Made by a program: the position numbers and the translations under genes | Part shown: piece by piece, positions 18,601 to 31,353 of the stretch | How positions within the stretch are numbered: the first letter of the stretch is position 1 | Layout: each line of letters opens with the position of its first letter | Virus record (IMG/VR): IMGVR_UViG_3300020183_000308 | Span: 1-31,543 of that record | Length of the DNA: 31,543 nucleotides | Origin: a virus | Reading direction: 5' to 3' (one strand) | Notes under the pieces: generated by a model | Seen by the model: the letters and a program-made list of their open reading frames with translations, nothing else | The model's database searches: none | Told to the model about the DNA's origin: nothing

Positions 18601-19182
18601 ATGCCTACAGGACAGAACAAGACAGGAAAGCATGGTGGCGCTGGTTCGAGGGCCAATAGGTATAAGCAGTTGTTATTGGATCAAGGGGTTGATCTCAAGG
18701 CTGCGACGGCTATGACAAAGGATCGATATGACGATTTGTCTCCGTATATAAGAGAGACTCGCACTGGCGGTAAGCAAAAAATCCCTATTACGTCGTCTGA
18801 GCTAGTTGAGATGGAAAAGATGGCGGAGCGTCAGGCCAACCAGTACAAGTCGTCTGGGAAGTATGTGTCTCCAGAGAGAAGAGAGGAGAAATTCGACATT
18901 ATTCGTGGGCGTCATCTTGCGGTGCGCCCAGAAAATGAGTATGAGTACAAAAAGAAGCAGATGACTCCAAGCAAAACATTGGAGCCATCTGGAACGGTTC
19001 GTCCCGTGGGCGGTGGTTCGGGATCGCGTGGTGGTGGGGGTGGTGGCGCGATGCCTGATGTAGATAAGCTTGGTAAAAACCCATTAAACATGGCGAAGGG
19101 TGGCCTTGCTACTCGTGGGTATGGTCTTGCAAGAAGGCCAGCAAAAAAGATGGTGAAGTTAGCGGGCACTAAAAAACGATGA
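18601..19182 (+). CDS. Basic, glycine-rich protein before the large terminase
   Basis: 193 residues from ATG 18601 with GGAG seven bases upstream. The N-terminal part (KTGKHGGAGSRANRYKQLLLDQGVDLKAATAMTKDRY) is basic; residues about 135-150 are a Gly/Ser linker (GGGSGSRGGGGGG); the end is basic (MAKGGLATRGYGLARRPAKKMVKLAGTKKR). The MAKGGLAT-type tail also occurs in the 1264-residue protein (MAQGGLVYRQ), a feature I associate with aquatic phage structural proteins. It may be virion-associated or packaging-related; function unknown. It overlaps the terminase by 4 nt. Confidence 0.8.
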   Translation: MPTGQNKTGKHGGAGSRANRYKQLLLDQGVDLKAATAMTKDRYDDLSPYIRETRTGGKQKIPITSSELVEMEKMAERQANQYKSSGKYVSPERREEKFDIIRGRHLAVRPENEYEYKKKQMTPSKTLEPSGTVRPVGGGSGSRGGGGGGAMPDVDKLGKNPLNMAKGGLATRGYGLARRPAKKMVKLAGTKKR

Positions 19183-20642
19183 CTGCCCAGATCCAAGATC
19201 CATCGGCCGAGATTGCTCGTCTGGAGTACAGGCTTGAGCAGTTACAGGTTCGTGAGCGGGCGAGGGAAAACTTTTTGGATTTTGTGCGGTATGTGTGGCC
19301 GGAGTTCATATGTGGCCCGCATCACAAAATCATGGCGGAGAAATTTGAGGCCTTGGTCCGTGGAGATTTGACCAGGGTCATTATTAATATTGCTCCTCGC
19401 CATGGTAAGTCAGAGCTCACTTCGTATTTGTTTTTAGCGTGGCTCATGGGTCGCGAACCAACGTCCAAGATTATTCAGGCGACGCACACGGGTGAGTTGG
19501 CGATGCGGTTTGGTCGCAAGGTGAGGAACCTGATGGATTCGGAAATTTATAAGGATATCTTTCCGGAGGTGGCCTTGGCGGCGGACAGTAAAGCGGCTGG
19601 GCGGTGGGAGACGAACAAGGGTGGGGAATATTTTGCCACTGGTGTGGGTGGTGCGATGACGGGTCGTGGTGCGAATTTTTTGGTTATTGATGATCCGCAC
19701 TCGGAGCAGGATGCGTTGTCGGAGACGGCGATGGAAGCGGCGCATGAGTGGTATACGTCTGGGCCTCGGCAGCGTCTGCAGCCCGGGGGTCGGATTTTGT
19801 TGGTAATGACGAGGTGGTCAAAGAAGGATTTGACCGAGATGGTGTTGAAGGATCAGGCCAAGGATTTGAGGTCAGACAAGTGGGATGTGATTGAGTTTCC
19901 GGCGATCATGCCCAGTGGCAAGTCGTGTTGGCCGGAGTTTTGGAAGATCGATGATTTGTTGGCGGTCAAGGCGGCGTTGCCGGTTAGCAAGTGGAATGCG
20001 CAGTGGCAGCAGAATCCGACTTCGGAAGAGGGGGCGATATTCAAGCGAGAGTGGTGGCGGGTGTGGCCGCATGAAGGGGTGCCCAAGCTGAAGTACATCA
20101 TTCAGAGCTATGACACGGCGTATTCTAAAAAAGAGACAGCCGACTATTCTGCTATTACGACGTGGGGAGTATTTCGGCCCAGTCCGGATGATCCGGACAG
20201 TTTGATTTTGTTGGATGCCAAGAAGGGGCGGTGGGATTTTCCTGAGCTCAAGCGAAAGGCCATGGAGTTTTACAAGTTTTGGAATCCGGATTGCGTGTTG
20301 ATTGAAGCGAAAGCTTCGGGGTTGCCACTCACTCAAGAGTTGCGCAGAACCGGTATTCCGGTAGTAAACTACTCACCTGGGGGGCGCAATAAATCGACGG
20401 ATAAGGTCAGTCGAGCGAACTCCGTGTCTCCGGTTTTCGAGGCGGGGATGGTATGGGCTCCGGACCAAGCGTGGGCGGAGGAAGTTGTTGAGGAGATGGC
20501 GGAGTTTCCGTTTGGAGAGAACGATGACCTCACGGACAGTGCTGTGCAAGCGGTAATCCGATTCCGCCAAGGGAGTTTTATTTCGCTCCCGGACGACTTT
20601 GAGGACGAGCCTTCTGAAGAACAACAGTACGTCTACTATTAA
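19179..20642 (+). CDS. terL: Terminase large subunit
   Basis: 487 residues with both activities visible. ATPase: Walker A APRHGKS (72-78), Walker B FLVIDD (167-172) followed by PHSEQD, and coupling motif TRW (211-213). Nuclease (RNase H-like, Terminase_6C type): YDTAYSKKETADYSA (D312 and D322), VLIEAKASG (E376) and GENDDLTDSAVQAV (D449, D450, D453). It forms the packaging motor at the portal and cuts concatemers. ATG 19179 overlaps the preceding gene (ATGA). It is separated from its small subunit by 6.5 kb. Confident call. Confidence 0.96.
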   Translation: MTAQIQDPSAEIARLEYRLEQLQVRERARENFLDFVRYVWPEFICGPHHKIMAEKFEALVRGDLTRVIINIAPRHGKSELTSYLFLAWLMGREPTSKIIQATHTGELAMRFGRKVRNLMDSEIYKDIFPEVALAADSKAAGRWETNKGGEYFATGVGGAMTGRGANFLVIDDPHSEQDALSETAMEAAHEWYTSGPRQRLQPGGRILLVMTRWSKKDLTEMVLKDQAKDLRSDKWDVIEFPAIMPSGKSCWPEFWKIDDLLAVKAALPVSKWNAQWQQNPTSEEGAIFKREWWRVWPHEGVPKLKYIIQSYDTAYSKKETADYSAITTWGVFRPSPDDPDSLILLDAKKGRWDFPELKRKAMEFYKFWNPDCVLIEAKASGLPLTQELRRTGIPVVNYSPGGRNKSTDKVSRANSVSPVFEAGMVWAPDQAWAEEVVEEMAEFPFGENDDLTDSAVQAVIRFRQGSFISLPDDFEDEPSEEQQYVYY

Positions 20643-20653
20643 GGACTGGGGCA

Positions 20654-23600
20654 ATGCAGACACCTGTGCCTAACCCGAACACAAAGCCGGTGATGCCGAG
20701 CATGGACAGTGATACACGGCCCACGGACCAGAACCTGCAGAAGTTTTTGGATTTCCTTGGCAAGGCTGAAGGGGCGGACTACAACGTCATTGTGGGTGGG
20801 AAGAAGTTTCAAGACTTTTCAAAGCATCCTGGGGTGGTGGGGCTGAGAACCAAAGAGGGTCCAAGTACGGCGGCTGGTAAATACCAGATCACGAAAACGA
20901 CTTATGATGACTTTGCCCCGAAGCTAGGGATTAAGGATTTCTCTCCGCAGAGCCAAGATCGCATTGCGATCGAGCTAATTCGGTCAAAAGGGGCCTTGGA
21001 GGATGTTGAGCGGGGTGATTTTCGCTCGGCGATAGACAAATTGGGCTCGACTTGGGCGTCTTTGCCCTCAAGTCCATACACGCAGCCCAAGCGTGGGTGG
21101 GATTTTGCTGAAACTACGTTGGGTGTGCCTCTTGGCGAGCGCACAAAAATTGCTCGGGCGGCGACTCAAACACAAAAAGCGACCAAGGGAGTGTCTCCAT
21201 CGGCTAAAAAACCGATGAAACTGGCTCCTTTGGACACTTTGCCAACCAGTTATCGCACTGCGCTGGCGTTGAACTTCTTAACTGACAGCGATCCGGAGGA
21301 CGAAGTTATGTCCAAAGCGATCGAAGTGCTCAGAACGACGCAAGAAGACAGTGAAAGGGGGGCGCCAGCGGGTGCAGCGACGCTTCAAAGGTATCTAAAG
21401 TCGCAAAAACCGGTTGATCCTTTCCAATTTTTAGTCCGTGAAGAGGAACCGCAGCAAATAATGCGTCCTCCAGCAATTCAGAAAATTCGGAGGATGGCGC
21501 AAGGAGGTTTGGTGTACCGCCAAGCGGGCAGTCTGCCTCAGGGCGAGCGCTCGGTGAATGAAGTGCCCCAAATTGGGCCAGATGGGAGGTTACTTTTACC
21601 GACACTGGAGCCTGAACGAAAGTTAAGTCTTGCAGAAAAAGCAAGGGGCCTGATAGAAACGGGTGCGACGATTGCAACGGGAGCTGTTGCGGCGCCAATT
21701 GCAGCGGCAACGGGCTTGGCTCGTGGCAAAAACATCAATGAGGCCAATGTAGAGGCGGGTAAGGTCATGGAAGCGATGACCTTCATGCCTAGAACTGAAG
21801 CTGGGCGCAGGTATTTAGAGCAATTTGGCAGGGCAATGCAAGAGAGCAAGCTTGATGCGTTGCTTCCGCAGGCTCAGCTGCTCAATGTGCGTGTTGCGCC
21901 GGGTGCTGCGAGGTATTTAGGCGAGCAGGCCAAGGGAAAAGTGGAAGAAGCGGTGATGCCGACTCTTCGCAAACAAGCTGGACGTGAGGATTTGACCCCT
22001 GAAGATGTCTACGGGGCCATGTTGGGAAAGCCAGCGGACGTAATGGCAGAAGCAGGGGCTATTTATGCCACTCGACCTCTTGGGCTAAAGGCGGATGTGG
22101 GCGCCGATGTTCGTTCGGCCAGTAAGGTCGCAGAAAGATATGCGGAAGAGGCTGCGTTAGAGTCCGATGACTACGTTAGAAATCTTAAAACAGAAATTTT
22201 CCGCACAAACGAAGATCTCTCAAGAGTAAATCAAAAGCTAGAAAATTTGTTGGCCACTTCTCCTAACCCGGAACTCTCTGATGAATATAAAGGATTGATT
22301 CGTCGAACTGAAGAATTAGAAGGCCAGAAAAGTATGTTTGAGGGCCGCTTGGCTCGTGAAAATGACCGTGCGCAAATATTTACAAACTTTGCGCCTACGC
22401 TTGAAGCTATTTCTAACAAAGCGGTTGACTACTTTTCAACCACATTTGGCACGGTCAAAGATCCTTTGTACAAGGCCTTTGTTGATGGGCGTTGGACACC
22501 AAAGTGGATGAATGAAGTTGAGCATGGTGGCATTTCAGGTGACATGCAGCTCAATTACGAGAGGTTCCTTGTTTCTGGATTAAAGGACCTGCCTTCTTGG
22601 AATGAGCCGGTTTCTGGAACTCCTGGCCGCGCGGCTGTTCCTGCGTATGGGCTGACTCTAGATGACGTTCGCGCCATGGCACGGGGAGAGAAAGGCACTC
22701 CTCTGCAACAGGAGCAGGCGGCGATTTCGTTATCGCAAATGTATGATGCATTGAGCGAGCAAACGGGAGAAATCATCAGCCCGTACACGGACGTTGGCTT
22801 TTTCATGAACCCCGAGGCTAAAAAGTTGGCAGTTCCTGTGGTGCAGGATGCAGCTGAAATAGCTTTGCGAAACATGAAAAAAGCTGCCATAGATCAGGAT
22901 CTTTTTGACTACGCCAAAGCAGATGGAGGCAAAGCGGCTAATGAAGCACTAGAGGCGATTGTTAGTCGTTTGAGAAGAGGAGCAAGCGAAAGATCGGAAG
23001 AGTCTAAACAAAGGACTGAAGCAAGTATTCAAGAGTTTATTCGTCAAATAAACGGCGCTTTGGATGACCGTGAGGTTTTTGAGGCAAGAACAAATGCCAA
23101 CGTAGATGCATTTAGGTCAGAGTTAAGAAGAAGCTTTGGGGGTAAAGAATTTGGTGCCGAGGAGTACGGGTGGGGAGAAAGGCCTGGGCTTCAACCAGAG
23201 AATATCTTGGACGCATTTGAGAAACACTATCTAAAAACGCTTAAATATTACTACGACAATCATGCAGATCCTGCTGTTGGAAAGGTAGCTACAACCGCCG
23301 ATCCAAAAACCGTCGCCATGACCAAGACGTTGTATGAGTTGGTTGGGACGCCAGCGATGAAGAAGAAAAGCATCCAAGAAATTGAGGCTGATCTTAGGCA
23401 AGCATTTGCTGGAAAAGAGCGCTGGAGGATTAGCGTAGATAATCGGACCCCAGAAGAAGTCGTAATGGCAGAGGCAATGGAAGCTGCCCATACTTCTATG
23501 GCAGATGTGTATGAGACCTTTTACAATCAAGTAACAGAGCAACAAGGTGCTCCGACATCTTCGCTGTCTTTCCGTCGAGGAAGAACTTATGGCAGCACGT

Positions 23601-24448
23601 TGGCACCAGACACAACAGACCCGTTTAGTAAGTCAGGGAAAGTTCTTGAGACAGGAGCTTCAAGGCTCAACATATTGAACACCTTGGTCCGTCATACGCC
23701 TGTCTTTGACGAAGCAATTAGAAAAGGCCAACCGGTCTATTCACTAGATTCCAACGTATTGTTTGACCAAGAGTTTAGTCCTTTTAATATGGAGGACATT
23801 GCCGAATATGCAGCAACCCTGTCTCCCAGGGATCTGCAAAAGGCTAGTTTCGCTGACCTAGTGGTTGGATCCGAAGGTAATTGGACAAATATCAATAACC
23901 CCAAAACAATCCTAAATCGAATGGAAAAAGGTCGCCCAGTGACCTCAGACCAAGCGCTTTTGGGAGTGACTAAAACACCATATGCTATCCCTTTAGTCAA
24001 CCCAGTTTTAGGCAAAAACAGAGACGTGGCAGGTTGGTACGAGATCACTAGCCCAGACGGCATGAAAGCGGAAGGGATGATGGCGCAGCATTGCATCAAA
24101 CAGCCCAGCTATTACAACCAGTACATGAATGGTGAGTCTAAGTTCTTTACCTTGCGCGATTCTCAAGGGTACCCCAAGCTGACTATTCAAATGCGCAATA
24201 AAGACTACCAGGGGCCAGACGAGTATCCGCTTATAAGCCCAACGATGAGCAGTGAGTTGCCTGGGGAGAACTTTTCCATAATTGCTCAGATTAAAGGCAA
24301 CTACAACAGCCCTGATGCAATGGCGTTTGAGGACGAAGTTAATAACTTTTTCCGCAACTACATGCGACAATACAACCTTCGGAATTTAAAAATTACAGAG
24401 GACTCAGACTACCTCACGCCTGCTTTGCGCGGCGAAGAGCCACTATAA
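20654..24448 (+). CDS. Giant lysozyme/PcfJ-like fusion protein
   Basis: 1264 residues from ATG 20654 after GGACTGGGG. Residues about 27-160 match lambda-type lysozyme (GH104, lytic transglycosylase): FLDFLGKAEGADYNVIVGG with E39 as probable catalytic Glu, STAAGKYQITKTTYDDFAPKLG (71-92), DFSPQSQDRIAIELI and WASLPSSPY. Residues about 285-295 have MAQGGLVYRQAG, and 330-370 an Ala-rich hydrophobic stretch that could be membrane-active. A coiled coil lies at about 505-575. The C-terminal 130 residues (GMMAQHC at 1141-1147, FFTLRDSQGYPKLTIQM, AQIKGNYNSP) resemble the PcfJ-like domain of phages and conjugative elements. Position between terminase and portal suggests a virion protein ejected with DNA, like polyvalent proteins. 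Confidence 0.78.
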   Translation: MQTPVPNPNTKPVMPSMDSDTRPTDQNLQKFLDFLGKAEGADYNVIVGGKKFQDFSKHPGVVGLRTKEGPSTAAGKYQITKTTYDDFAPKLGIKDFSPQSQDRIAIELIRSKGALEDVERGDFRSAIDKLGSTWASLPSSPYTQPKRGWDFAETTLGVPLGERTKIARAATQTQKATKGVSPSAKKPMKLAPLDTLPTSYRTALALNFLTDSDPEDEVMSKAIEVLRTTQEDSERGAPAGAATLQRYLKSQKPVDPFQFLVREEEPQQIMRPPAIQKIRRMAQGGLVYRQAGSLPQGERSVNEVPQIGPDGRLLLPTLEPERKLSLAEKARGLIETGATIATGAVAAPIAAATGLARGKNINEANVEAGKVMEAMTFMPRTEAGRRYLEQFGRAMQESKLDALLPQAQLLNVRVAPGAARYLGEQAKGKVEEAVMPTLRKQAGREDLTPEDVYGAMLGKPADVMAEAGAIYATRPLGLKADVGADVRSASKVAERYAEEAALESDDYVRNLKTEIFRTNEDLSRVNQKLENLLATSPNPELSDEYKGLIRRTEELEGQKSMFEGRLARENDRAQIFTNFAPTLEAISNKAVDYFSTTFGTVKDPLYKAFVDGRWTPKWMNEVEHGGISGDMQLNYERFLVSGLKDLPSWNEPVSGTPGRAAVPAYGLTLDDVRAMARGEKGTPLQQEQAAISLSQMYDALSEQTGEIISPYTDVGFFMNPEAKKLAVPVVQDAAEIALRNMKKAAIDQDLFDYAKADGGKAANEALEAIVSRLRRGASERSEESKQRTEASIQEFIRQINGALDDREVFEARTNANVDAFRSELRRSFGGKEFGAEEYGWGERPGLQPENILDAFEKHYLKTLKYYYDNHADPAVGKVATTADPKTVAMTKTLYELVGTPAMKKKSIQEIEADLRQAFAGKERWRISVDNRTPEEVVMAEAMEAAHTSMADVYETFYNQVTEQQGAPTSSLSFRRGRTYGSTLAPDTTDPFSKSGKVLETGASRLNILNTLVRHTPVFDEAIRKGQPVYSLDSNVLFDQEFSPFNMEDIAEYAATLSPRDLQKASFADLVVGSEGNWTNINNPKTILNRMEKGRPVTSDQALLGVTKTPYAIPLVNPVLGKNRDVAGWYEITSPDGMKAEGMMAQHCIKQPSYYNQYMNGESKFFTLRDSQGYPKLTIQMRNKDYQGPDEYPLISPTMSSELPGENFSIIAQIKGNYNSPDAMAFEDEVNNFFRNYMRQYNLRNLKITEDSDYLTPALRGEEPL

Positions 24449-24457
24449 GGAAAGACA

Positions 24458-26830
24458 ATGCCAAAGCCATCAAACATTGAAAAAGCAATCTACGGGTCAC
24501 CGGAGGAGGTGGACGTGATTGTGGAAGAGGAAGAAGAGATCGAGGTTCCTGAGGAAATCGAAATCGTCCTCGACGCCGATGGTGGGGCGACGATCAATAT
24601 AGGTGAGCCAGAGAAAGAGTTGGGCGACACCAAGCATTACGAGAATCTTGCTGCCAAGATGGAAGATGACGAGCTGGCTAAGATTTCTGAGCACATTTTG
24701 GCCATGTTGGATGCGGATACCAGCAGCCGCCAGGAGTGGGAGCAGACGTATTCCCAGGGCATGAAGCTTTTGGGCTTTCAGTTAGAAGAGAAGACCAAGC
24801 CTTTCCGTGGTGCGTCTAGTGCGATGGTTCCGTTGATTACGGAGGCCATTCTCCAGTTCACGGCGCAGGCCATGAAGGAGCTCATGCCCTCGAGCGGGCC
24901 CGTGCGCACGCAGGTGGTGGGCAAGAAGACCCGTGCGCGGGAGATGCAGGCGGAGCGTGTTAAGGAGTTCATGAACTACCAGATCACGACGGTCATGAAG
25001 GAGTACACCCCTGACTTTGACCAGATGCTCTGGTACGTGGGCTATGGTGGGTCGGCCTTTAAGAAGGTGTATTTCGACGAGAACAAGCGTCGTTGTGTGT
25101 CTCCGTTTATCACCCCGGACAACTTTGTCATGCCGTATCACGGCTCGAGCAATCCGTGGGAGAACGAGCGCTGTATTCAGATCGTTCCGATGTCTGAGAA
25201 TGAATTGCGCAAGCGTCAGGTCAATGGCACGTACTTGGATGTCGATGTTGCGGTTCCGGCGTACCCAAATACCACGCAGATTCAGGAGTCCGAGAACCGT
25301 GTTTCGGGGTTCTCGCCCAATAGTGAGGACGTTGAGTACACCTTACTTGAGGCTTATATTGAGTTAGAGATTCCTGGGGACTCGAAGGATGGGATCAAGA
25401 AGCCTTACATCGTCACGGTGGACAAGGACACTGGCACGGTGTTGTCGATTTATCGCAACTGGAGCGAAGATGATGAGACGTGTTGCCCGGAGCAGTATTT
25501 CGTGCATTACATGTTCCTGCCGGGTCCTGGCTGCATGGGGTATGGCCTTGTTCACATCATTGGTGGCTTGAACAAAGCGGCGACAGCTGCGCTGCAACAG
25601 TTGTTGGATGCGGGGACGTTGTCAAATTTGCCTGCTGGATTCAAGGCCAGGGGCTTGCGGATTGCCGACGATGACAAGCCGTTGCAACCTGGGGAGTTCA
25701 GGGACATTGATGCGGGTGGTGCGGAGCTATCAAGGGCGCTTTTGCCCTTGCCGTACAAGGAGCCGAGTCAGACGTTGTTTGTGCTGCTTGGGTTCTGTAT
25801 TGATGCGGGGCGCAGGGTAGCGAGCATTGCGGACATGCAGGTTGGGGATGGCAATCAGCAGGCGGCGGTGGGAACGACGATTGCGCTCTTAGAGCGTGGG
25901 TCGATGATTATGTCGGGCATTCACAAGCGGCTGCATTATGCGCAGAAGCTTGAGTTTGAGTTGATGGCCAAGTGTTTCCAAAAGTATTTGCCCGATGAGT
26001 ACCCGTATGACGTGATTGGTGGGGATCGGACGATCAAGCGGGAAGATTTTGATGATCGGGTGGACATTGTTCCGGTGGCCGACCCCAATATCTTTTCGGC
26101 GGCGCAGCGTATTGCCATGGCGCAGGCTCAGTTGGAGTTAGCCAAGAGTGCGCCTCAAATCCACAACATGTATGAAGCGTATCGGAGGATGTATGAGGCT
26201 TTGGGAACGAAGGATGTGGATGCAATTCTCAAACCGGATGATACGCAGAACCCCAAACCTAAAGATCCTGCTTCCGAAAATGCGGATGCGATTGATGGAA
26301 AAGAGCTTAAAGCTTTTGCTGGTCAACAGCATGATGCGCATATTGTTTCCCATTTGATTCAGGGAATGTCGCCGATCCTGCAGGGCAACCTGTTGGGGGC
26401 GGCAAACCTGACCAAACATGTTTTGGATCACGTTCGGATCAAGGCGGAAGAGCAGGTAGAGGCTCAAAACTTCAAAACATACGGTGTGGAAGCTCAAAGT
26501 ATGGTGTCAGACATTCAAAAAGAGGCTCAAGTTGCGATGCTCGTAGCGCAGGGCATGGCGGAGTTGCGTCAGCTGTCGTCACAACTTGCGGGAGAAGGTC
26601 CTGATCCTTTGGTGCAGTTGAAAGAGAAGGAATTGGCTCTGCGTCAGGCCGACTCTCAGGCCAAGGCGCAGGAATCGCAGGCAAGAATGGGCTTGGAGCA
26701 GGCAAGAATGCAACAAGATGCCCAGGAAACGCAGGCAAAACTGGCGCAAAACCAGCAAATTGCAAATGAGAAGGCTGCGATTGCTCGGGAGCGTCTTGAC
26801 ATCATGGAAAGGGGCCAAAATGCCGCTTAA
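24458..26830 (+). CDS. Portal protein (P22-like)
   Basis: 790 residues behind AAGGAAAGAC. It starts with a very acidic segment (VIVEEEEEIEVPEEIEIVLD, 20-39). The body carries features of P22-type portals: PFRGASSAMVPLITEAILQFTAQAMKELMPSSGPVRTQVVG (about 108-148), LWYVGYGGSAFKKVYFD, PDNFVMPY, HYMFLPGPGCMGYGLVHIIGGLNKAATAALQQLLDAGTL and QQAAVGTTIALLERGSMIMSGIHKRLHYAQKLE. The last 90 residues are a Gln/Ala/Glu-rich coiled coil likely to form the portal barrel. It makes the dodecameric packaging and ejection channel. Genes on both sides are head genes. The next gene overlaps its end by 11 nt. Confidence 0.9.
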   Translation: MPKPSNIEKAIYGSPEEVDVIVEEEEEIEVPEEIEIVLDADGGATINIGEPEKELGDTKHYENLAAKMEDDELAKISEHILAMLDADTSSRQEWEQTYSQGMKLLGFQLEEKTKPFRGASSAMVPLITEAILQFTAQAMKELMPSSGPVRTQVVGKKTRAREMQAERVKEFMNYQITTVMKEYTPDFDQMLWYVGYGGSAFKKVYFDENKRRCVSPFITPDNFVMPYHGSSNPWENERCIQIVPMSENELRKRQVNGTYLDVDVAVPAYPNTTQIQESENRVSGFSPNSEDVEYTLLEAYIELEIPGDSKDGIKKPYIVTVDKDTGTVLSIYRNWSEDDETCCPEQYFVHYMFLPGPGCMGYGLVHIIGGLNKAATAALQQLLDAGTLSNLPAGFKARGLRIADDDKPLQPGEFRDIDAGGAELSRALLPLPYKEPSQTLFVLLGFCIDAGRRVASIADMQVGDGNQQAAVGTTIALLERGSMIMSGIHKRLHYAQKLEFELMAKCFQKYLPDEYPYDVIGGDRTIKREDFDDRVDIVPVADPNIFSAAQRIAMAQAQLELAKSAPQIHNMYEAYRRMYEALGTKDVDAILKPDDTQNPKPKDPASENADAIDGKELKAFAGQQHDAHIVSHLIQGMSPILQGNLLGAANLTKHVLDHVRIKAEEQVEAQNFKTYGVEAQSMVSDIQKEAQVAMLVAQGMAELRQLSSQLAGEGPDPLVQLKEKELALRQADSQAKAQESQARMGLEQARMQQDAQETQAKLAQNQQIANEKAAIARERLDIMERGQNAA

Positions 26831-27243: not shown

Positions 27244-27284
27244 ACGGGGCTCGCGGACCCATTCCGCGCAATAAAGGAGATGTG

Positions 27285-27725
27285 ATGGAAGAAATGACCG
27301 AACTTCAGAAGAAGTGGGCGAAGGAAATACAGGAGGAAGAAAAGCAGAAGAAAGATTCCATTGACCCAAATAAGATGGACGAGGGTGTTTTGGAACGTAT
27401 TCCGGTGCCAACTGGCTGGAGGATCGTGGTTCTTCCTTACAGACCGCCTCACACTACCAAGGGTGGGATTGTTTTGGCTAAAGAGGCCGTTGATAAACAA
27501 CAAATTGCCACTGTTTGTGGGTATGTGGTGGAAGTTGGGCCGCTGGCGTACAAAGACTCGGACAAATTTCCTAATGGTCCATGGTGTCAGAAGGGGGACT
27601 GGGTGATTTTTGCCCGATATGCGGGAGCTCGTATCAACATCGAAGGTGGTGAGATACGCATTCTTAACGACGACGAGATTCTGGCTCAAGTAAAGGATCC
27701 AGAAGACGTCCTTCACATGGTTTAA
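27285..27725 (+). CDS. GroES-like co-chaperonin
   Basis: 146 residues from ATG 27285 (AAGGAG at 27274-27279; a GTG one codon earlier is less likely). Residues 38-137 follow the Cpn10 fold: IPVPTGWRIVVLPYRPPHTTKGGIVLAKEAV contains the GGIVL mobile-loop sequence (60-64) through which GroES binds GroEL; then CGYVVEVGPLAYKD, GDWVIFARYAGARINIEGGEIRILNDDEILA. It has a charged N-terminal extension (about 37 residues) and an insertion before the GDWVIF strand. Like T4 gp31, it probably replaces host GroES so that the capsid protein can fold in GroEL. Its place beside scaffold and capsid genes fits this. Confidence 0.9.
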   Translation: MEEMTELQKKWAKEIQEEEKQKKDSIDPNKMDEGVLERIPVPTGWRIVVLPYRPPHTTKGGIVLAKEAVDKQQIATVCGYVVEVGPLAYKDSDKFPNGPWCQKGDWVIFARYAGARINIEGGEIRILNDDEILAQVKDPEDVLHMV

Positions 27726-30747: not shown

Positions 30748-31353
30748 ATGGACTACAGCACATACCCCTCTTCCCGATTGGAAGCCAAAGTTTCGGGAGC
30801 AAGTTACTACTTCACTGGCTTGCCTTGTAAGCATGGTCACGTTGCGTTGCGCAAGACCAAGGGATCTTGTTTGGAGTGTTTAAAAATTGAATGGGAAAAA
30901 GGAAAGACAACAAGGAAAGATTATTTCAGGTCGTATAACCACTCTGATGCAGGCAAGCGCTCTAAGCAACAGTATTACGAGCAAAACAAAGAAAAGGTTA
31001 TAGAGCGAGCCAAGAATCAGGCTGCGGAAGACAGGAAAAAGTACAAAAAAGCTTGGAAACAAGCTAATCTAGACGAGGTCAAGGCTAGTCAAAATGACCG
31101 TCGCAGACGGCATAAAAACGCCACGCCCGCATGGTTGACTGATGCGGACAAACGAGAAATTAGGCGCATTTACCGAGAGGCTATATCTAAGACGGCCAGC
31201 ACGGGAGTTGTGTACGTGGTGGATCATGTGATTCCGCTGAGAGGCAAGACTGTTTGTGGGCTTCATGTACCCACAAATTTGGCAGTCATAACGGCTGAGG
31301 AAAACTACCAGAAGAACAACAAGTATCTTGACACGGCGCCTGATCCGGCGTAA
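30748..31353 (+). CDS. HNH endonuclease, probable free-standing homing endonuclease
   Basis: 201 residues from ATG 30748. C-terminal HNH core: VVDHVIPL (D159-H160), CGLHVPTNLAVI (H173, N177) and ENYQKNNKY (N186, K189, N190). N-terminal zinc-binding-like part: LPCKHGH and SCLEC (C27, H29 or H31, C41, C44), then a long basic coiled region (about 50-122) that may bind DNA. It lies alone between the capsid terminator and the next structural gene, the usual site for intruding HNH genes in head modules. No intron or split gene is visible beside it, and the codon use is more AT-rich than that of the capsid gene. Confidence 0.88.
   Translation: MDYSTYPSSRLEAKVSGASYYFTGLPCKHGHVALRKTKGSCLECLKIEWEKGKTTRKDYFRSYNHSDAGKRSKQQYYEQNKEKVIERAKNQAAEDRKKYKKAWKQANLDEVKASQNDRRRRHKNATPAWLTDADKREIRRIYREAISKTASTGVVYVVDHVIPLRGKTVCGLHVPTNLAVITAEENYQKNNKYLDTAPDPA

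Follow-up and report, generated by a model that had tools for sequence, protein, structure and literature searches.

A giant phage protein joining a GH104 lysozyme domain to a PcfJ-like domain, encoded in a cargo slot between the terminase and portal genes

The window analysed here is a 31.5-kb IMG/VR virus record (31,543 nucleotides, taken whole) from a freshwater-type phage. A large open reading frame (ORF) lies between the genes for the terminase large subunit (TerL) and the portal protein, in the order TerL, 1264-aa ORF, portal. The features of this locus are as follows:

19179..20642, + strand: TerL, upstream flank of the slot (phrog_38, E = 5.6e-114; Pfam Terminase_6C)
20654..24448, + strand: giant protein of 1264 aa, whole ORF, one intact reading frame
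20726..21103, + strand: GH104 (lambda R-type) lysozyme domain, residues ~25-150 (phrog_90, PDB 3d3d/1am7, BB8 protein D)
20768..20770, + strand: codon of E39, the predicted catalytic glutamate
21494..21541, + strand: linker motif MAQGGLVYRQAGSLPQ (GG-V-Y/H-R-x-x-GS), from residue 281, found by eye
21647..21727, + strand: Ala-rich hydrophobic stretch, residues 332-358 (Kyte-Doolittle)
22130..22378, + strand: charged, probably helical stretch, residues 493-575, a putative coiled coil
24011..24355, + strand: PcfJ-like domain, residues ~1120-1234 (sub-threshold Pfam match, relatives' profile, hhalign and predicted fold)
24458..26830, + strand: portal protein, downstream flank of the slot (phrog_1216, E = 1.2e-35; 57% identity to the portal of phage DSL-LC04)

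The 1264-aa ORF follows the TerL stop codon after 11 bases and is separated from the portal start by 9 bases, and AAGGA-type candidate ribosome sites precede both this ORF and the portal gene. A 100%-identical copy was found in IMGVR 3300021093_000213, and an uninterrupted copy with 81% amino acid identity in the 59.7-kb contig 3300036770_004625 (L002), which is probably a complete genome, since it has a 126-bp terminal repeat. Comparison of the window ORF with the 81% copy gave an overall dN of 0.126 and dS of 0.93 (dN/dS ~0.14), with purifying selection in every region for which dS could be computed; the PcfJ segment is 75% identical at the amino acid level, with synonymous sites so saturated that dS was not computable there. 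We considered an assembly artefact as the source of the fusion, and it was ruled out by the intact 81% relative and the purifying selection. The uninterrupted state of this copy and the dN/dS value therefore indicate that the fusion is real and maintained, and the single chain of 1264 residues between terminase and portal, described in a previous sequence-only reading of this DNA, was confirmed in its frame, coordinates and length.

Judging from sequence comparison, the N-terminus of this protein carries a GH104 (lambda R-type) lysozyme in which the predicted catalytic glutamate is kept. The domain matched the PHROG endolysin family phrog_90 (E = 2.7e-34) and the lambda lysozyme structures PDB 3d3d/1am7 (E = 5e-25, query residues 38-146), and it has the L-D-x-L-x-x-x-E-G motif in common with lambda R. 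E39, presumably the equivalent of E19 of lambda R (lambda numbering), was invariant in a three-sequence alignment of the window domain with those of Bordetella phage BB8 and Aeromonas phage ST4. The N-terminal lysozyme proposed in the sequence-only reading is thus borne out by the PHROG and lambda lysozyme matches and by the conservation of E39. GH104 was also the most conserved segment between the two copies of the ORF (96% amino acid identity, versus 73-90% elsewhere; dN 0.033). A scan of GTDB genomes with the GH104 query yielded a single Acinetobacter locus, at which the domain is found in a small ORF of 215 aa, and the same scan with the C-terminal half as the query gave no match.

The closest known GH104 domain, with 68% identity to that of the window, occupies the N-terminal ~130 residues of internal protein D (~1550 aa; L123, 4998-9653), the gp16-like core protein of the T7-like phage BB8. 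However, no similarity between the two proteins was detected outside GH104, and the BB8 gene lies between tail-tube and fibre genes, after the genes for internal proteins B and C, a position that we take to be that of T7 gp16. The N-terminal hydrolase of T7 gp16 works at entry, and during ejection T7-like core proteins make use of a wall hydrolase. The GH104 module has apparently been exchanged between unrelated podoviruses.

Profile, profile-profile and predicted-structure comparisons all relate the C-terminus to PcfJ. The domain contains the motif series E-G-x-x-x-x-HC-I..Y..G..FFTLRD..G.P.LTI..IIAQIKGN.N and matched the Pfam PcfJ family (PF14284, named after a conjugation gene of pCF10) with 17.5 bits (E = 0.0038), below the gathering cut-off of 25, so it is related to PcfJ but is not a formal Pfam member. 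The motif series and predicted fold are common to the window domain and PF14284, whereas the window domain has two additional residues (QP) following HC-I-K and a different spacing before the last strand. A profile built from 15 clear PcfJ members among relatives, with the window left out, retrieved the window protein with hmmsearch at E = 4.3e-6 (full sequence) and its 81% relative at 1.4e-5, together with the sister proteins of contigs L008, L010, L011 and L013, and the best unrelated ORF scored E ~1. With hhalign, the window C-terminus aligned with PcfJ (95%, E = 3.3e-8) over 113 columns, among them E-G, H-C-I, Y, F-T-L-R-D, G-x-P, L-T-I and Q-I-K-G-x-x-N, and profile-profile comparison with L013/L008/L011 gave E = 3.6e-7. 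AlphaFold2 modelled the C-terminal 264 residues with moderate confidence (pTM 0.66; core blocks mostly at pLDDT 85-92), and 11 of the 13 BFVD matches to this model with E<=1e-3 were named PcfJ-like; because PcfJ relatives were present in the input alignment of the model, this result partly depends on the sequence evidence. The outcome that would have spoken against the sequence-only reading, a C-terminal fold without relation to PcfJ, was thus not found, and the PcfJ-like assignment stands. In sister slot proteins, the HC of PcfJ is changed to HS, and the motif is lost in L110/L111, an argument against HC being a catalytic motif that every member needs. PcfJ is found on plasmids as well as phages. 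A tblastn search of plasmids and phages with the DSL-LC04 PcfJ domain as the query gave very few matches, and no paper on PcfJ function was found among the open papers searched. The giant slot proteins of 1655-1706 aa in L110 (4177-9294) and L111/L114 (4246-9210) have a PcfJ-like segment in mid-chain, in which YGLGGW replaces HCVGxY, and a second large ORF (600-880 aa) lies between each of these proteins and the portal.

The middle ~950 residues had detectable homologues only in the window phage and its close relative, except for a single match: among named phages, residues 160-1264 retrieved only a functionally uncharacterised Manatee Spring phage protein, from an unrelated phage, which matched part of the middle region weakly (E = 0.04). 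An NCBIfam search of the 1264-aa protein gave no match. The Ala-rich hydrophobic stretch noticed previously is present, but it is not convincing as a membrane helix: the Kyte-Doolittle peak of 1.51 is no higher than in shuffled copies, 42% of which reach this value. The coiled coil proposed for the long middle region did not hold up statistically, as the heptad signal near residues 533-590 falls below the 95% shuffle level, and a coiled coil is therefore only plausible. A linker of the type GG-x-V-x-R-x-x-GS-P-x-YGE was seen by eye to recur between modules of the slot proteins of L008, L011, L013, L085 and the window (residues 281-293); it is possibly a recombination or spacer motif.

Relatives were gathered through the portal protein, and the contigs include near-duplicates, so the members listed below are raw and uncorrected for relatedness. 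The gap between TerL and the portal gene is close to zero in L014, L017, L019 and Pag-Yong1, and filled slots span 0.5 to 7.7 kb (the latter in L111), the long ones consisting of one or two large ORFs with products of up to ~1700 aa. PcfJ slot proteins were found in DSL-LC04, L097, L102, L103 and L107-L111, an N-terminal SLT transglycosylase with a PcfJ-like domain in L008 and L011, and the ADP-ribosyltransferase domain ART-PolyVal in L007, L008, L010 and L105, with PcfJ beside it in L007 and L105. The slot protein of L108 combines LPD23 with PcfJ, that of L018 is ParB-like, and in the cultured relative Pelagibacter phage HTVC027P the slot is taken by other large proteins (gp41/gp42). PcfJ lies in mid-chain in L104, L105, L107 and L110. 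When PcfJ alone was used as the query, blind to the flanks, every locus found had TerL and/or portal adjoining, and wherever both flanks were visible the PcfJ gene was between them; no locus was found elsewhere. The portal of L006 (2-2854) is 72% identical to that of the window, yet its slot protein is different, with no wall hydrolase or PcfJ in the available part, which shows that slot content is rapidly replaced. By its gene content, the gap between terminase and portal serves as a cargo slot in this phage clade, and PcfJ is its commonest detectable module.

The slot protein of DSL-LC04 (OR003939), WJZ48068.1, is among the closest known counterparts of the window protein. This phage has a portal 57% and a TerL 63% identical to those of the window phage, and the protein, in the same slot, carries PcfJ near its C-terminus (Pfam E = 5e-9). 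However, it has 825 aa and no detected N-terminal lysozyme, and phmmer found no full-length similarity between it and the window protein. GenBank names it a 'PcfJ-like protein', and PcfJ is not mentioned in the DSL-LC04 genome paper (PMC10611076).

In the 59.7-kb, probably complete relative, a gene for a three-transmembrane (3TM) holin is directly followed by one for an M15 peptidase endolysin, a pair likewise annotated in DSL-LC04, and no other wall hydrolase was found among the scanned large tail and ejection-region proteins of this relative. GH104 would therefore not be needed for lysis, and the domain is best explained as an entry hydrolase. We consider the 1264-aa protein to be, probably, a virion-packaged polyvalent protein that is ejected, opens the cell wall and delivers a PcfJ effector. 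It would be produced late, along with the packaging and head gene products, become part of the virion and enter the host by ejection at infection. The N-terminal GH104 would then cut peptidoglycan locally, giving the ejection machinery and DNA a way across the periplasm. Carrying the chain through portal and tail would be the task of the long middle region, and once in the cytoplasm the PcfJ-like C-terminus may act as an early effector. Ejection has indirect support: the lysozyme heads a protein of the late structural operon, the complete relative has a separate holin and endolysin, a T7-like internal core protein begins with the closest GH104, and known polyvalent-protein domains are present in sister slot proteins. 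The lack of outside homologues for the middle region, the divergence of PcfJ and the absence of a clear membrane segment count against this reading.

Ejected polyvalent proteins are of an already known kind, and lysozyme-bearing examples in late phage contexts have been described as injected and as breaching peptidoglycan (Iyer et al. 2017, PMC5512222). The window protein is likewise very large and multidomain, joining disparate domains (a wall hydrolase, GH104, and the PcfJ-like domain) in 1264 aa, and is encoded in a late phage operon, between TerL and portal; ART-PolyVal and LPD23, two domains of the polyvalent class, are present in its sister proteins from this slot. Unlike those, the window protein contains no Pfam domain of this class (ART-PolyVal, LPD), and its lysozyme is of the GH104 type. 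The link to large polyvalent proteins suggested by the sequence-only reading was therefore right in kind, but PcfJ is named nowhere in the main text of the founding survey (PMC5512222). The GH104-PcfJ fusion and the use of PcfJ as clade-wide terminase-portal cargo appear undescribed, as neither was found in the open papers searched.

Three other readings were weighed. It seems unlikely, but worth considering, that the protein is solely a structural or ejection-channel component, with the lysozyme used at entry and the PcfJ-like end serving for packaging or docking rather than as a cytoplasmic effector. Among the modules detected in the slot PcfJ is the most frequent, and it always stands beside TerL and/or portal, some members have lost its HC motif, as in a structural module, and the C-terminal region of N4 virion RNA polymerase is required for encapsidation (PMC5512222). 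However, PcfJ is in mid-chain in four of the relatives named above, plasmids also carry it, and it is absent from several slot proteins, while several phages have no slot protein at all, so PcfJ is no general signal for packaging. It is quite improbable that this is a late protein of the cytoplasm that is not packaged and takes part in, for example, superinfection exclusion or host takeover, with GH104 being incidental or binding the wall rather than cutting it; slot proteins with no detected wall hydrolase do exist (DSL-LC04 type), but GH104 is the most conserved region of the window protein and keeps its catalytic glutamate, which implies contact with peptidoglycan. Most unlikely of all is a lysis protein, with GH104 as an endolysin bearing a large C-terminal extension and used at the end of infection: in phage lambda GH104 serves as the endolysin, and the database matches of the domain are mostly annotated as endolysin, lysin or lysozyme, but the closest complete genome and DSL-LC04 already have a separate holin and M15 endolysin, so that, judged from the former, the protein is not the sole lysis hydrolase paired with a holin, its gene sits in the packaging operon, 1100 residues extend beyond GH104, and the nearest GH104 begins an internal virion protein.

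PcfJ recurs in the slot, both joined to wall hydrolases of the entry kind and in company with ADP-ribosyltransferase domains, and is therefore a candidate for an early effector. A possible kinship with GNAT acetyltransferases is a lead rather than a result. The combination of GNATs with ARTs is known in polyvalent proteins (PMC5512222). In the model of the window domain, the predicted order beta1-alpha1-alpha2-beta2-beta3-beta4-alpha3-beta5 is that of the GNAT core, and canonical PcfJ has Q-I-K-G-K-G-N after beta4, at the GNAT CoA-binding position. GNATs bind CoA through Q/R-x-x-G-x-G/A, and it is this fit of topology and of a Q-x-x-G-x-G-like loop that makes the lead. Foldseek searches of the PDB with two separate models (window and L108) gave lists dominated by entries that we take to have the GNAT fold, but the matches were not significant (best E only 0.012 and 0.59), the top alignments, to malonyl-CoA decarboxylase, had very high rmsd, and PcfJ alignments used as profiles against PDB sequences gave no GNAT or other convincing match. 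It is a tentative possibility that PcfJ is an unrecognised GNAT-fold, acyltransferase-like domain that this clade ejects, often with an ADP-ribosyltransferase, and whose targets, modified immediately upon entry, would be host proteins or RNA.

Two further genes of the window may be mentioned. A co-chaperonin (Cpn10/GroES) gene is located in the head operon (27282-27725), and its position is kept across the clade, in DSL-LC04, HTVC027P, HTVC023P and Caulobacter phage RW. Directly after the major capsid gene, an ORF at 30748-31353 encodes an Endonuclease VII-like protein (phrog_1035, E = 5e-13).
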